Source: Alistipes sp. dk3624 (GTDB lineage: Bacteria > Bacteroidota > Bacteroidia > Bacteroidales > Rikenellaceae). From it: 64,000 nucleotides of DNA. Shown here piece after piece: positions 32,748-38,327 of the stretch (positions are counted from its first letter, which is position 1; each line of letters begins with the position of its first letter). Where the stretch lies: positions 2,728,001 to 2,792,000 of the forward strand of contig NZ_CP045651.1 of the NCBI RefSeq assembly GCF_009557455.1, written 5' to 3'. The notes under the pieces were generated by a model. The model had not been told where the DNA came from, did no database searches, and saw only the letters and a list, made by a program, of their open reading frames with translations. The position numbers were made by a program, and so were the translations under genes.

Positions 32748-34091
32748 ATGATCGAAGCGGGTTTGTTGTTCATCGGATTGGTTGCGGGAATCGCTGCGGC
32801 GGCGTTGGCTTTCCGGCCGGCGTTCAGGCGGTATGCGCGGACGGAAGAGGCGTTGAAAGCGGATAATGAAGCCAAAAACGCACAGTTGATCGACCTGAAC
32901 CGCCAGGCCGCCGAACGGGCGGCCCGGTGTGCGGCCCTCGAGGAGAAATTGCTCTATCAGCAGGCCGAAGCCGAGCGCGAGCGCGCCCGCCGCACCGAAG
33001 AGATCGCCGCGCTGCAAGAGCAGCAGCGTCTCGCTTTTAAAAATCTGGCTAACGACATTCTGGAGGAGAAGAGCCGGCAGTTCAAGCAGAGTAACCGGGA
33101 ATCGCTGGAGTCGTTGCTGAAGCCGTTCCGGGAAAATATCGAAGGATTCCGCAAACGGGTCGACGAAGTGTACGACAAGGAGGCGCAGCAGCGTTTCTCG
33201 CTGAAAGAGGAGATTCGCAGCCTGAACGAGATGAACCGCCGGATGTCCGAGGAGGCCAACAACCTGACGCGCGCGCTGAAGGGCAATTCGAAGGTGCAGG
33301 GCGATTGGGGCGAAATGATCCTCGAAACGATCCTCGATAGTTCGCACTTGGTCAAGGGGATTCATTATTTTACGCAGGAAAACCTCAAAGACGCTGCGGG
33401 CAACAACCTGCGTCCGGACGTGATCCTGAACCTGCCCGATCGCAAGCAGATCGTCGTCGACTCGAAAGTGTCGCTGACGGCTTATGTCGCCTATACCGAA
33501 AGCGCCGATCCGGACGAAGCGTCGCGCGCGGTGAAGAATCACCTGCGGTCGGTGCGCAGTCATATCGACGAGCTGGGCAGCAAGCGTTACCAGGCGCTCG
33601 TAGACTCGCCGGATTTCGTCATCATGTTCGTGCCGAACGAGCCGGCGTTCTTGCTGGCGATGCAGCACGACCCGACGCTGTGGAGCGACGCTTATAATAA
33701 AAAGGTGATCGTCAGCAGTCCGACGAACCTGTTCGCGCTGCTGAAATTGGTCGACGACCTGTGGAAGCGGGACAAGCAGAACAAGAATGCGATCGCGATC
33801 GCCACCGAAGGGGCGAATCTGTACGACAAATTCGTCGGTTTCGCCGAGACGCTGACCGATCTGGGGCGCAGCGTTTCGGCTGCCGGGGAGAAATACGAAC
33901 GGGCGATCAAACAATTGAAAACCGGCAGCGGCAACCTGATCCGGCGTACCGAGCGGTTGCGTGAGCTGGGGGTGAAAGCCACCAAAGACCTGCCTGCGCA
34001 GTTGTCCGATTACGACGATGGCGACCCGTTGCCGGGGGCGCAGGACGGCCGCTCGGGGCTTCAGGTTGAAAAAAATAACGGTATCGGTTAA
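32748..34091 (+). CDS. rmuC: DNA recombination protein RmuC
   Basis: 447 residues from the ATG at 32748, which has a clear AGGAG six bases upstream. An N-terminal membrane anchor (residues 2-22) is followed by a long coiled coil (~30-180) and the conserved RmuC nuclease-like domain (GNSKVQGDWGEMILETILDSS, IVVDSKVSLTAYVAY, FVPNEPAFLLAM). RmuC limits inversion and rearrangement at repeats; its biochemical role is not settled. Confidence 0.95.
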   Translation: MIEAGLLFIGLVAGIAAAALAFRPAFRRYARTEEALKADNEAKNAQLIDLNRQAAERAARCAALEEKLLYQQAEAERERARRTEEIAALQEQQRLAFKNLANDILEEKSRQFKQSNRESLESLLKPFRENIEGFRKRVDEVYDKEAQQRFSLKEEIRSLNEMNRRMSEEANNLTRALKGNSKVQGDWGEMILETILDSSHLVKGIHYFTQENLKDAAGNNLRPDVILNLPDRKQIVVDSKVSLTAYVAYTESADPDEASRAVKNHLRSVRSHIDELGSKRYQALVDSPDFVIMFVPNEPAFLLAMQHDPTLWSDAYNKKVIVSSPTNLFALLKLVDDLWKRDKQNKNAIAIATEGANLYDKFVGFAETLTDLGRSVSAAGEKYERAIKQLKTGSGNLIRRTERLRELGVKATKDLPAQLSDYDDGDPLPGAQDGRSGLQVEKNNGIG

Positions 34092-34098
34092 ATTTTTC

Positions 34099-34128
34099 TT
34101 GTTTTTTCCCGTTTTTGTCGTACATTTG
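34099..34128 (+). promoter_or_regulatory. Promoter of the aromatic amino-acid operon
   Basis: TTG at 34099-34101, 19-bp spacer, TACATTTG at 34121-34128, just after the rmuC stop. Transcription would start near 34135 and produce a ~220-nt leader before pheA. Confidence 0.75.
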
Positions 34129-34175
34129 CACAGTTAAAAAATAAAGTATAACAAGCTAATCAGTTCAGAGGGACG

Positions 34176-34259
34176 ATGAATCAGCTTTCGCTTTTTTGGG
34201 GTTATTATTTTTACTTCTACTTTTTTACCAAAAGCGGACTGGGGTTGCGTTGCCGATAG
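34176..34259 (+). CDS. Aromatic leader peptide of the pheA operon
   Basis: A 27-codon ORF too short for routine gene calling, with GAGG placed four bases before the ATG. Residues 7-17 read FWGYYFYFYFF: ten of eleven are aromatic (five Phe overall, four Tyr, one Trp). The stop is TAG at 34257-34259. The peptide itself is probably not functional; its translation senses charged tRNA-Phe and tRNA-Tyr. Ribosomes that stall in the aromatic run leave the antiterminator strand at 34236-34246 free, whereas ribosomes at the stop codon cover it. Confidence 0.85.
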   Translation: MNQLSLFWGYYFYFYFFTKSGLGLRCR

Positions 34260-34302
34260 CGAAGATAAGTGCTTGTGCGAAAAATAATAAAAATCCCGGT
34301 CC
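34236..34302 (+). promoter_or_regulatory. Antiterminator of the pheA attenuator
   Basis: GGACTGGGGTT (34236-34246, inside the leader ORF) pairs over all 11 bases, with two G-U wobbles, to AATCCCGGTCC (34292-34302). The second strand contains most of the left arm of the terminator, so this pairing and the terminator exclude each other. Confidence 0.8.
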
Positions 34303-34322
34303 GTAAGGAGCCGGGATTTTTT
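34290..34322 (+). terminator. Attenuator terminator upstream of pheA
   Basis: 10-bp outer stem (34290-34299 with 34311-34320), an inner TCC/GGA closing a GTAA loop, and a run of six T at 34317-34322. It lies between the leader ORF and pheA (start 34355), the classic position for amino-acid attenuation. Confidence 0.88.
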
Positions 34323-34354
34323 GTCGATACGGAAGATGTAAAAGAGACAGGAAG

Positions 34355-35185
34355 ATGAACGGAAAGATGAAAGTGGCCATACAGGGTTACGAGGGGAGTT
34401 TCCACCACATTGTCGCCGAACGGTATTGGGGCGAAGGGATCGAGATCGTGCCGTGCCCGACATTCCGCGAAGTGGCTCGCCAGGTCGAAAGCGGCGACTC
34501 GGACTGCGGCGTGATGGCGATTGAGAACTCGATCGCCGGCAGCATCCTGCCGAATCTCGGCATCCTGCATAACAGCCGCCTGCAGGCGGTCGGCGAGTAT
34601 TACCTGCATATCAGGCAGAACCTGATGGCGCTGCCCGGCGTGCGGTTGGAAGATATCGAAGAGGTGCACTCGCATCCGATGGCGTTGTTGCAGTGCGTCG
34701 ATTTCCTCGATCCGCACGGCTGGAAGCTGGTCGAAACCGAAGACACCGCGCTCAGCGCCCGCCGGATCGCCGAACGGGGCACGCGCAACGCCGCCGCGAT
34801 CGCCGGCGAACTGGCGGCCCGGCTGTTCGGACTCGAAATTTTGGCTCCCGACATCCATACGATCAAGAACAACTGCACCCGCTTTATGATTCTGCGCCCC
34901 GACCACCAGCCGATCGACGAAAAGGCCGATAAGGCGTCGCTGTGCCTGATGACCGACCACCGGCAGGGATCGCTGCTGCAAGTGCTGCGGGCGATGGAGG
35001 ATTCGTCGATCAACATGACCAAGCTGCAATCGTCGCCGATCCCGAGCGAACCGTGGCACTATATGTTCCATATCGACATGGAATTCGCGTCGATGGACGA
35101 TTATAACGAAGTGATCGAACGTATGCGCCGCGCGAGCCGCGAGCTGCACGTATACGGCGTTTACCGCAGAGGAGAACATTCGTAA
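34355..35185 (+). CDS. pheA: Prephenate dehydratase
   Basis: 276 residues: the catalytic PDT domain (residues ~1-190; TRF motif in NNCTRFMILRP) and a C-terminal ACT domain (GSLLQVLRAMEDSSINMTKLQSSPIP) for feedback by phenylalanine. It converts prephenate to phenylpyruvate. It is the first gene of a four-gene Phe/Tyr operon controlled by the leader peptide. Unlike E. coli PheA, no chorismate mutase is fused; that activity is on the fourth gene. Confidence 0.96.
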   Translation: MNGKMKVAIQGYEGSFHHIVAERYWGEGIEIVPCPTFREVARQVESGDSDCGVMAIENSIAGSILPNLGILHNSRLQAVGEYYLHIRQNLMALPGVRLEDIEEVHSHPMALLQCVDFLDPHGWKLVETEDTALSARRIAERGTRNAAAIAGELAARLFGLEILAPDIHTIKNNCTRFMILRPDHQPIDEKADKASLCLMTDHRQGSLLQVLRAMEDSSINMTKLQSSPIPSEPWHYMFHIDMEFASMDDYNEVIERMRRASRELHVYGVYRRGEHS

Positions 35186-35203: not shown

Positions 35204-36373
35204 ATGAATCCGATCAAAGTGGAACTGGCCGAACGGCTGGGCAGCGTCGAGGAGTACTACTTCTCGAAGAAGCTGCGTGAGATCGACGAGATGCGGGCCG
35301 CCGGACGCGAGGTAATCAACCTCGGCATCGGAAGTCCCGATCAGCCTCCCCATCCGGAGGTGGTGGCCACGCTTGCCGCCGAAGCGGCCAAACCTGGGAA
35401 TCACGGTTATCAACCCTATAAAGGCGCCGCCGTGCTGCGCAACGCATTCGCCGCTTGGTATCGGGATCGTTACGGCGTAACGCTCGATCCTGTGAGCGAG
35501 ATCCTGCCGCTGATCGGCTCGAAAGAGGGGATCATGCACGTTTGCATGACCTACCTGGACAAGGGCGATAAAGTGCTGGTGCCGAATCCCGGTTATCCGA
35601 CTTACCGCTCGGCGGCTACGATTGCCGGCGGGGTCTGCGTCGATTACAAATTGCGCGAGGCGACCGGCTGGATGCCCGATTTCGACGAGATCGAACGGCA
35701 GGGGATACAGGGCGTCAAAATGATGATCGTCAATTATCCGCACATGCCGACCGGGGCGATACCCCAAGAGGGTTTGTTTCAGAAACTGGTGGATTTCGCG
35801 AAAAAGCATAACATCCTGCTGCTGCATGACAACCCGTACAGTTTCTTGCGTAACCCGCGTCCGGCGAGCCTGCTTGCGGCCGACGGGGCGATGGATGTGG
35901 CCATTGAACTGAACTCGCTGAGCAAAAGCCACAGCATGGCCGGTTGGCGTATCGGGATGATCGGAGCGGCGAAACAGCGGATCGACGAGATCATCCGATT
36001 CAAGAGCAATATGGACTCCGGAATGTTTTACCCGATGCAGGCGGCTGCGGCCAAAGCGTTGAGCCTCGGCGACGACTGGTACCGTTCGATCAACAAGTTG
36101 TACGGCAGCCGCGAAGCGAAAGCCTATGAAATTCTGAACCAGATCGGGTGTTCGTACGATGCGGGCCAGGCCGGTCTGTTCGTCTGGGGACGCCTGCCGG
36201 AGGGCGCGGGCGACTGTTACGAGTTTTCGGATAAAATACTGAACAGCTGCGGCGTCTTCCTGACTCCGGGCGGTATTTTCGGTTCGGAAGGGAACCGGTA
36301 CGTCCGGATCAGCCTTTGCGCGACGGAAGAGTTGTTGCAGCGTTCGATCGATAAAATCAAGACATTGCTATGA
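35204..36373 (+). CDS. PLP-dependent aminotransferase (class I), aromatic or aspartate type
   Basis: 389 residues with the fold-type I features LGIGSPDQPPHP, NYPHMPTGA and the PLP lysine in SLSKSHSMAGWRIGM. Its place between pheA and tyrA implies that it transaminates phenylpyruvate and hydroxyphenylpyruvate, or prephenate, with glutamate or aspartate as donor. The substrate is inferred from context. The stop overlaps the tyrA start (ATGA). Confidence 0.9.
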   Translation: MNPIKVELAERLGSVEEYYFSKKLREIDEMRAAGREVINLGIGSPDQPPHPEVVATLAAEAAKPGNHGYQPYKGAAVLRNAFAAWYRDRYGVTLDPVSEILPLIGSKEGIMHVCMTYLDKGDKVLVPNPGYPTYRSAATIAGGVCVDYKLREATGWMPDFDEIERQGIQGVKMMIVNYPHMPTGAIPQEGLFQKLVDFAKKHNILLLHDNPYSFLRNPRPASLLAADGAMDVAIELNSLSKSHSMAGWRIGMIGAAKQRIDEIIRFKSNMDSGMFYPMQAAAAKALSLGDDWYRSINKLYGSREAKAYEILNQIGCSYDAGQAGLFVWGRLPEGAGDCYEFSDKILNSCGVFLTPGGIFGSEGNRYVRISLCATEELLQRSIDKIKTLL

Positions 36374-37209
36374 AGGCGGCGGTAATAGGTATCGGGTTGA
36401 TCGGGGGATCGTTCGCACTGACCCTGAAAGATAAAGGCATTTGCGAGGAAGTGATCGGAGTGGATAATTCCGAGCGCAACCGCGCCAAGGCGGTCGAATT
36501 GGGACTGGTCGATCGCACGCTTCCGCTGGACGAAGCGATTCCGGCTGCCGATCTGATCGTGCTGGCCACGCCGGTAGATTCGATTCCGCTGCTGGCCGTG
36601 AAAGTGCTGAACAAGGTCGACCGGCAGGTGGTGATCGACATGGGATCGACCAAACAGGAGCTTTGCGAGGTGATCGCCCAGCATCCCAGGCGCGGGCGCT
36701 TCGTAGCGACCCACCCGATGTGGGGTACCGAGTACAGCGGCCCGGAAGCGGCCGTTCACGATGGATTTGAAGGACGTACGGTGGTGCTTTGCGACGGTGC
36801 GGAGAGCGATCCGGACGCACTGAAACTGGTCGAGGATATCTACCGGAAAATCGGAATGCCGATTAAATACATGAGTTCCGAGGAGCAAGATACGCATACG
36901 GCTTACGTCAGCCACATTTCGCACATCACGTCGTTCGCGCTTGCGCTGACCGTGCTTGAGAAGGAGCGCGAAGAGGAACATATCTTCGATCTGGCGGGCG
37001 GCGGTTTCGAGAGTACGGTGCGTTTGGCGAAAAGTTCGCCGGAAACCTGGGCTCCGATTTTCATGCAAAATAAATATAATGTGCTCGACGTGCTGCGCGA
37101 GCATATCCATCAGTTGCAGATTTTCCGGCGCCTGCTCGAAAAGGACGACACCGAAGGACTGAAACAGATGATGCAGCGCGCGAACCGGATCAACCGGATT
37201 ATAAAATAG
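36370..37209 (+). CDS. tyrA: Prephenate dehydrogenase
   Basis: 279 residues with the NAD(P) loop VIGIGLIGGSFA at the N-terminus, the TyrA block THPMWGTEYSGPEAA, and an all-helical C-terminal half with HTAYVSHISHITSFAL. It oxidatively decarboxylates prephenate to 4-hydroxyphenylpyruvate for tyrosine. Start codon overlaps the aminotransferase stop. Confidence 0.95.
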   Translation: MKAAVIGIGLIGGSFALTLKDKGICEEVIGVDNSERNRAKAVELGLVDRTLPLDEAIPAADLIVLATPVDSIPLLAVKVLNKVDRQVVIDMGSTKQELCEVIAQHPRRGRFVATHPMWGTEYSGPEAAVHDGFEGRTVVLCDGAESDPDALKLVEDIYRKIGMPIKYMSSEEQDTHTAYVSHISHITSFALALTVLEKEREEEHIFDLAGGGFESTVRLAKSSPETWAPIFMQNKYNVLDVLREHIHQLQIFRRLLEKDDTEGLKQMMQRANRINRIIK

Positions 37210-37265: not shown

Positions 37266-38327
37266 ATGAAACCGTTTGATATCAAAGCGAAACGTCCCTT
37301 GATTATCTCCGGCCCGTGCAGCGCGGAGACGGAGGAACAGACACTCGAGACTTGTCGGCAAATCGCTGCGACCGGCCTGGTCGACGTACTGCGCGCCGGC
37401 ATCTGGAAACCCCGGACGAAGCCCGGTTCGTTCGAAGGAGTGGGCCTCAAAGGTCTGGCGTGGATGAGTAAGGCCCGCGAACTGACCGGCCTGCCGATCG
37501 GAACCGAAGTGGCCACGTCGAAACACGTCGAGGCCGCCCTCGAATTCGGGGTGGATGTGATCTGGGTGGGGGCCCGTACGACGGTCAATCCGTTCAGCGT
37601 GCAGGATATTGCCGATGCGCTGAAAGGGGCCGACGTGACGGTGCTGATCAAAAACCCGATGAACCCCGACATCGAACTGTGGAGCGGGGCGATAGCCCGG
37701 ATGCAGAATGCCGGAATCACCAAGCTCGGCCTGATCCATCGGGGTTTTTCGGCCTACGGAGCCTCGCTGTACCGCAACAATCCGATGTGGCATCTGGCTA
37801 TCGAAATGCGGAGCCGTTTCCCGGAACTGCCGATGATCTGCGATCCGTCGCATATCTGCGGTTGCCGGACGTATCTGCAGGAGGTTGCGCAGAAGAGCGC
37901 CGACCTCGACTACGACGGGCTGATCATCGAAAGCCATATCTGTCCGGACAAGGCGTGGAGCGACGCTTCGCAGCAGGTTACCCCGGACGGGTTGAAGGAG
38001 TTGCTGGGTAAGATCGTATGGCGTCGTTCGACGACCGACAGCCCGGATTACCAGCAGGCATTGGCGAAACTGCGCAGCCAGATCGACCAGATCGACGCCG
38101 AAATTTTCGAATTGATCAGCAAGCGGATGCGGGTGGCCGAGCAGATCGGACTCGTCAAACGCGACAACAACGTGACGATCCTGCAGGGCGGCCGATGGCA
38201 GAGCATCGTAGACCGCGTGGTTTCGCAGGCTCCGAAGTTGGGCGTCAGCACCGAATTCCTGAAAACGGTGCTCGAAGCGATCCACCTCGAAAGTATCAAC
38301 CGCCAGAATATGGTGATGAACCGGTAG
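37266..38327 (+). CDS. Bifunctional DAHP synthase / chorismate mutase
   Basis: 353 residues. Residues ~1-260 are a DAHP synthase barrel (ISGPCSAETEEQ, RAGIWKPRTKPGSFEG, CDPSHICG, DGLIIESH) that starts the shikimate pathway from PEP and erythrose-4-phosphate. Residues ~268-353 are an AroQ-type chorismate mutase (LAKLRSQIDQIDAEIFELISKRMRVAEQIG). The fusion places the first step and the branch point of aromatic synthesis on one polypeptide, allowing the mutase part to act in feedback control. Last gene of the attenuator-controlled operon, 56 bp after tyrA. Confidence 0.95.
   Translation: MKPFDIKAKRPLIISGPCSAETEEQTLETCRQIAATGLVDVLRAGIWKPRTKPGSFEGVGLKGLAWMSKARELTGLPIGTEVATSKHVEAALEFGVDVIWVGARTTVNPFSVQDIADALKGADVTVLIKNPMNPDIELWSGAIARMQNAGITKLGLIHRGFSAYGASLYRNNPMWHLAIEMRSRFPELPMICDPSHICGCRTYLQEVAQKSADLDYDGLIIESHICPDKAWSDASQQVTPDGLKELLGKIVWRRSTTDSPDYQQALAKLRSQIDQIDAEIFELISKRMRVAEQIGLVKRDNNVTILQGGRWQSIVDRVVSQAPKLGVSTEFLKTVLEAIHLESINRQNMVMNR

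Follow-up and report, generated by a model that had tools for sequence, protein, structure and literature searches.

Within the 64,000-nucleotide stretch of Alistipes sp. dk3624 DNA that we analyzed (the window), four genes for the synthesis of Phe and Tyr follow one another on the plus strand. They comprise pheA, coding for prephenate dehydratase (34355-35185; family PDT), a class I/II aminotransferase gene (35204-36373; Aminotran_1_2), tyrA, coding for prephenate dehydrogenase (36370-37209; PDH_N/PDH_C), and a gene for a DAHP synthase fused to chorismate mutase (37266-38327; DAHP_synth_1 and CM_2), and these gene families confirmed the identities given in an earlier note on this DNA. As they share a strand and are separated by 18, -4, and 56 nt, the four genes probably form one operon. 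Upstream on the same strand, rmuC (family RmuC) ends at 34091.

Downstream of rmuC, a promoter-like pair spans 34099-34128 on the plus strand and is composed of TTG (34099-34101), 19 nt, and TACATTTG (34121-34128). This call is based on the Bacteroidota promoter consensus, and transcription would be expected to start a few nucleotides downstream of 34128. TANNTTTG was found 15 to 120 nt 5′ of the leader ATG in 94 of the 156 distinct leaders described below, versus 6.2% of mononucleotide shuffles. The pair is followed by a putative leader ORF on the plus strand (34176-34259; 27 codons and a stop), which translates to the 27-residue peptide MNQLSLFWGYYFYFYFFTKSGLGLRCR with the Phe/Tyr run FWGYYFYFYFF, where 10 of 11 residues are aromatic. 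Its aromatic score of 10 out of 12 was equaled by none of 2,000 shuffles of the 450-nt upstream region, whose maximum was 8; the aromatic leader ORF reported earlier was thus confirmed. A perfect complementarity was also seen between 34202-34212 in the aromatic run (TTATTATTTTT) and 34280-34290 (AAAAATAATAA), just 5′ of the terminator; this helix would cross the antiterminator.

A Shine-Dalgarno-like GAGG had been noted for this ORF, but it is not conserved. Shine-Dalgarno-like 4-mers precede 20 of the 156 leader ATGs and are present at 12% of random positions, and the motif was dropped as evidence. This lack of enrichment makes initiation of the leader by Shine-Dalgarno pairing unlikely. Passages of published work on Bacteroidia state that Shine-Dalgarno pairing is not in general use in this class (PMC9976891).

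An intrinsic terminator hairpin (regions 3:4) is predicted at 34289-34321 on the plus strand, with a stability of -19.7 kcal/mol and a T run at 34317-34322. When the segment downstream of the ORF was dinucleotide-shuffled 300 times, no hairpin as stable arose, the lowest reaching -11.8 kcal/mol; the T-tailed terminator was thus confirmed, with coordinates slightly different from those first given (34290-34322). Its left arm holds region 3 (34292-34302), which can pair either with region 4, forming the terminator, or with region 2 (34236-34246), forming an antiterminator. Region 2 lies inside the leader ORF and starts 12 nt from the first base of the last aromatic codon. The 2:3 helix has 11 bp, including 2 G-U pairs, at -18.6 kcal/mol, and no segment as strong was obtained in 200 shuffles, in agreement with the antiterminator described in the earlier note. 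The locus therefore displays the hallmarks of an attenuator as predicted from sequence, namely, a leader ORF rich in codons for the products, a terminator before the first gene, and a mutually exclusive antiterminator using the terminator's left arm. Very probably, it controls the Phe/Tyr genes by ribosome-mediated attenuation of transcription.

Transcription would start just 3′ of 34128, with a ribosome trailing the polymerase through the leader ORF. With ample charged tRNA-Phe and tRNA-Tyr, the ribosome would pass the aromatic codons and move onto region 2; with region 2 covered, region 3 would pair with region 4, and transcription would end at approximately 34322. If Phe or Tyr were short, the ribosome would stall in the run with its leading edge at or before region 2, and regions 2 and 3 would pair before region 4 is made, blocking the terminator. 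Read-through would then carry transcription into pheA and the three genes that follow it. It is from the parts, their conservation, their co-variation, and their fixed spacing, as observed, that we infer the stall, the coupling, and the amino acid response.

Upstream regions were retrieved from relatives by way of PheA, and an ORF was called aromatic when at least 6 of 12 residues were F, Y, or W. Such an ORF precedes pheA in 9 of 9 loci of the genus. A PheA match was found in 128 of the 200 family genomes, at 129 places, of which 90 were examined; one (L020) was dropped because its contig ends just upstream, and an aromatic ORF was present in 75 of the remaining 89 loci. The aromatic run is thus kept in close relatives, a check proposed in the earlier note. 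A set of named genomes (Rikenellaceae, Chitinophagaceae, Sphingobacteriales, Hymenobacter, and others), drawn from the best 80 loci and reduced to 66 by filtering, yielded the ORF in 65; this set shares some genomes with the family sample, and 54 of its 65 leaders are not identical to any family leader. At the level of the order, 29 other families were represented by one locus each, and 27 of these 29 loci have the ORF. Removal of loci with less than 200 nt upstream and of identical upstream regions reduced the collection from 198 to 184, of which 17 have no aromatic ORF, and removal of identical leaders from the other 167 left the 156 distinct leaders, which come from the genus, family, named-genome, and order sets. 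A phylum set (L265 to L313) was scanned for the ORF alone. Of 44 places in the order, 30 were examined, and of 103 in the phylum, 50.

In the phylum set, 22 loci of class Bacteroidia have a PheA of this type, and the leader was found in 20 of them, the two without it (L281 and L287) both belonging to genus g135. It was also found in the two loci outside this class whose PheA has a score similar to that of the Bacteroidia type (L272 in genome G311 and L278 in genome G363). That these two carry a Bacteroidia-type PheA together with an aromatic leader suggests, at the sequence level, that gene and leader moved together into other classes. Among the 25 examined loci with lower-scoring PheA types (5 plus 20, two of the latter within class Bacteroidia), none had a leader reaching the threshold, the best score being 5.

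Several features of the sample concern pheA itself. Eleven pheA homologues of the family (L024, L037, L040, L042, L044, L046, L047, L049, L055, L064, and L078) have neither an aromatic ORF nor an upstream T-tailed hairpin of -9 kcal/mol or lower, an apparent joint loss of the predicted attenuator. No PheA match was obtained in 72 of the 200 family genomes (e.g., G026 and G029), nor in 37 of the 109 that are at least 90% complete with at most 5% contamination; Phe synthesis seems patchy in the family. Finally, a metagenome-assembled genome titled Verrucomicrobiota bacterium (L106) harbors an aromatic leader together with a pheA that resembles those of Rikenellaceae (62% identity) and may be mislabelled, mixed, or the result of transfer.

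Shuffle controls showed that the aromatic ORFs are not expected by chance. Of the 89 family regions, 75 reached a score of 6 and 56 a score of 8, as opposed to 101 and 0 of 2,670 dinucleotide shuffles, respectively; on the opposite strand, 9 of 89 regions reached 6. The runs of the 156 leaders total 1,620 residues, including 743 F, 567 Y, 19 W, 2 L, and 1 I, and at least 2 Phe and at least 2 Tyr each are present in 150 of the 156 runs, while 4 runs have no Tyr. The sensed residues would thus match the products, as first proposed, since the genes make Phe and Tyr and not Trp. ORF and hairpin occur together: of the 156 leaders, 153 are followed by a T-tailed hairpin at or below -12 kcal/mol, compared with only 9 of 468 shuffles, and such a hairpin is found in 4 of the 17 upstream regions lacking the ORF, despite the longer stretch searched there. 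With a limit of -9 kcal/mol, such a hairpin is present 3′ of the aromatic ORF in all 167 distinct loci.

These data bear on two other explanations of the locus. The hairpin might be the terminator of rmuC, which ends shortly upstream on the same strand, and the aromatic ORF might have arisen by accident in T-rich DNA. A bias toward T should on its own also give Leu and Ile, but the runs are made of TTY and TAY codons with hardly any of either (2 and 1 of the 1,620 residues). Together with the promoter-like box in between, the co-occurrence of hairpin and ORF, their fixed spacing, and their co-variation, this makes the explanation all but untenable. Alternatively, the short ORF might act on translation, through pheA initiation or reinitiation, rather than on transcription termination. 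Leader ORFs are able to act in this manner, and passages of one study propose reinitiation after leader genes, with a distance peak at 11 to 14 bp in Bacteroidetes (PMC4833913). In the window, the leader stop is 95 nt away from pheA, far from that peak, and the T-tailed hairpin in 167 of 167 loci also argues against it. We regard an effect on translation as very unlikely.

Further support for transcription attenuation came from co-variation. The terminator arm varies between lineages, even among members of genus g22, where arms with TCCTGACC, GCCCCGCCC, GCCGTTCC, or CCCGCTCC are found, and region 2, located at or next to the end of the leader ORF, varies in step with it. Over the 156 leaders, the mean pairing energy of region 2 was -15.2 kcal/mol with its own arm and -9.0 kcal/mol with arms of other loci sharing no 5-mer with it. 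In 10,308 such swaps, the median fraction of foreign arms pairing as strongly as the own arm was 0.017, and this fraction was 5% or less in 99 of 156 leaders. In 128 of 156 leaders, no more than 5 of 100 shuffles did as well as the antiterminator, and 9 leaders have weak antiterminators, with more than 20 of 100 shuffles as good. In 72 family leaders, unrestricted swaps were as good as the own arm in a median of 9.9% of cases because many leaders share an arm. Single-linkage clustering of the arms placed 68 of the 72 in one cluster and was discarded as uninformative.

A MAFFT alignment of 22 close leaders gave a less even picture. For the antiterminator, two pairs changed on both sides, a number reached by 355 of 500 shuffles, and the covariation score was reached by 14 of 500. 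Co-variation was clearer for the terminator, whose score was reached by 0 of 500 shuffles. In the arm, three leaders (L014, L016, and L018) seem to be shifted by one base in the alignment. On the whole, the comparison with relatives called for earlier bore out the reading: covariation was seen for the terminator on this alignment, and for arm and region 2 across the 156 leaders, but the antiterminator signal was weak on the 22-leader alignment. Taken together, the joint occurrence of ORF and terminator and the co-variation of arm and region 2 over 156 leaders support the reading of the locus as a Phe/Tyr leader-peptide attenuator. Co-variation also addresses the idea that the leader peptide acts in trans as a small hydrophobic protein, for which peTrpL, a leader peptide reported to have a function in trans, offers a precedent (PMC7298713). 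The C-terminal codons vary in step with the terminator arm that the same RNA carries, a pattern expected when selection acts on the RNA, and there is next to no likelihood of a trans-acting peptide here.

We then considered where region 2 lies relative to the run. Across the 156 leaders it starts a median of 12 nt (IQR, 11 to 15) past the first base of the last aromatic codon, and in 134 of them at 9 to 17 nt, versus 18.9% of 3,120 shuffled segments. A bacterial ribosome reaches about 12 to 15 nt beyond its A site. In 125 leaders, region 2 ends before the stop codon is reached; in 10 it includes the stop codon, and in 21 it begins only beyond it. The median spacing between run and region 2 is 12 nt in the 125 leaders and 15 nt in the other 31. 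Judged by these positions, it is the aromatic run and not the stop codon that sets the placement of region 2. The earlier description, which located the antiterminator strand by its distance from the stop codon as well as from the middle of the run, must be amended accordingly, as the strand starts about 12 nt past the run's last codon wherever the stop lies.

The effect of ribosome position was modeled with transcripts ending before region 4, an approach that replaced full-length folding with ribosome masks and that partly restates the 12-nt spacing and is not independent of it. The mean modeled probability of 2:3 pairing was approximately 0.8 with the A site in the run and 0.70 at the last aromatic codon, then dropped to 0.41, 0.17, and 0.04 at one, two, and three codons past the run. 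Over four assumed footprints, it ranged from 0.01 to 0.16 at three codons past the run, and the predicted switch position agreed to within about two codons. With the ribosome at the stop codon, the probability exceeded 0.5 in 30 to 64 of the 156 leaders, depending on the footprint. For the window leader, the smallest footprint gave 0.75 and each of the three others 0.00, and the claim that a ribosome at the stop hides the antiterminator strand is thus not robust.

Before region 4 is made, and with no ribosome, 2:3 pairing was the preferred fold in 108 of 156 leaders in the model. Equilibrium folding of the full leader favored the terminator in 147 of 156 leaders without a ribosome and in 126 with a ribosome in mid-run; with ribosome masks, 28 of 156 leaders switched in this calculation, which thus failed to tell the states apart in most cases, and in the window the probability of 2:3 pairing was near 0 with and without a ribosome. 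Since equilibrium mostly favors the terminator, the switch would have to rest on the order of folding, 2:3 pairing taking place before region 4 is transcribed.

A possible protector hairpin was found in the window at 34182-34247 on the plus strand, pairing region 1 (34182-34199) with 34228-34247 and leaving most of the aromatic run in the loop. A hairpin of this kind would hold a leader without translation in the off state. The MFE over the first 75 nt of the leader ORF was -12.2 kcal/mol, and the hairpin did not go beyond 1 of 10 shuffles. Over the 156 leaders, the mean for 1:2 pairing was 0.72 observed and 0.58 shuffled, and 39 leaders beat all 10 of their shuffles; folding thus offers weak support for a conserved protector hairpin. 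A simpler design than that of textbook attenuators may be shared across Bacteroidia, with three RNA strands and no conserved protector, in which the ribosome edge at the last Phe/Tyr codon serves as the ruler, transcription proceeds through an untranslated leader by default, and the genes are shut off only by a ribosome past the run. We put this forward tentatively, and judge it possible but somewhat less than even in likelihood.

We also compared the leader with known RNA families. No Rfam family was matched at its gathering score in the window leader or in the leaders of 20 scanned loci. The best subthreshold match of the window leader was to Thr_leader, itself an attenuator (22.8 bits versus 55; E = 0.038), and the sole family found in the 20-locus scan was Flavo-1, twice in L269 and outside the leader. 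Covariance models for Phe_leader (RF01859; 14.7 bits versus a cutoff of 55), Bacteroid-trp (RF01692), and T-box gave no match in the window pheA leader. T-boxes govern comparable genes in Firmicutes, and a T-box or a ligand-binding riboswitch could in principle sense Phe or Tyr directly, with the ORF being incidental. Both the absence of Rfam matches in these leaders and the fact that the coding run and the pairing are what is conserved speak against direct sensing, which we consider highly improbable.

The predicted attenuator resembles the enterobacterial pheL-pheA system (RF01859), in which a product-rich leader peptide, a terminator, and an alternative antiterminator precede pheA. It differs from it by the joint use of Phe and Tyr codons, by the row of four Phe/Tyr genes, by having neither a Shine-Dalgarno signal nor a clear protector hairpin, and by the location of region 2 inside the ORF in 125 of 156 leaders. 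Leader-peptide attenuation also appears to exist elsewhere in the phylum. Passages of a transcriptome study of Flavobacterium psychrophilum report strong clues for it before amino acid operons, as well as structured 5′ elements without Rfam hits upstream of pheA and hisG, the pheA element being present in other Flavobacteriaceae genera as well (PMC9723704). Like the leader described here, that element belongs to the same phylum, lies 5′ of pheA, and is without Rfam hits; those passages name neither a leader sequence nor a sensed residue and do not describe the geometry of a switch (PMC9723704). Leader-like short ORFs are mentioned in passages on Bacteroides thetaiotaomicron (PMC7366714), and the leader families covered in the relevant passages of another study are those for Trp, His, Leu, and Thr only (PMC3766115).

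No account of a joint Phe/Tyr leader from Bacteroidota turned up in our search of the main text of open-access papers. The novelty suggested for the joint form in the earlier note stands to that extent, but the kind itself has precedents in the phylum, as seen from the Flavobacterium passages (PMC9723704) and from Bacteroid-trp (RF01692). Given those hints of attenuation and of a pheA element, the Phe/Tyr leader is best viewed as a widely conserved addition to a known kind. What is new is its conservation across much of class Bacteroidia and the spacing rule.

Other amino acid leaders were identified in the genus. Bacteroid-trp contains a Trp leader peptide, and one was observed in this genus. 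The family was matched at an E value of 0.001 or lower in 4 of 9 genomes, and above the cutoff in 1. In the window genome, a subthreshold match (L316; G000:C1:351259-351393; 45.8 bits versus a cutoff of 49) contains a leader ORF ending in WWWRILQLPQS and is followed by trpB and then by a trpE-type gene; a scan upstream of trpE had missed this Trp leader because trpB comes first. In a published table, Bacteroid-trp is classed as cis-regulatory in Bacteroidetes (PMC2864571). The pheA leader shares this phylum and, as predicted, this mode, and the match before trpB has, like it, a leader ORF, here with WWW, and a T-tailed hairpin. Where Bacteroid-trp has Trp codons, the pheA leader has those for Phe and Tyr, and it has no match to RF01692; by eye, region 2 of Bacteroid-trp seems to be at the stop codon, farther from the Trp codons.

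Before hisG, a His-rich leader ORF, a T-tailed terminator, and a complementary strand were seen in 9 of 9 genomes of the genus, a count made with no shuffle control. In the window genome, this leader (L209; G000:C1, upstream of 2408225, minus strand) includes the ORF MSQFNHIHVHHHHLRPSR and a T-tailed hairpin. It differs from the pheA leader by the use of His codons, and its arm pairing is weak in 1 of 9 genomes (L206; -6.9). Inspection by eye, with no control, revealed no convincing leader before leuA, the aspartokinase gene, or ilvD in the genus. The presence of Phe/Tyr, Trp, and His leaders in one genus suggests that attenuation by leader peptides is routinely used by a lineage without general Shine-Dalgarno pairing.

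Altogether, these analyses provide a well-supported regulatory model for Phe/Tyr synthesis in Bacteroidia, where the scanned leaders match no Rfam family. For the attenuator to function in the predicted manner, transcription would have to be coupled to translation at these leaders. If the three-strand design with the ribosome edge as ruler were true, transcription and Shine-Dalgarno-independent translation would be closely coupled in Bacteroidota leaders, and the leader would travel with pheA into other classes.
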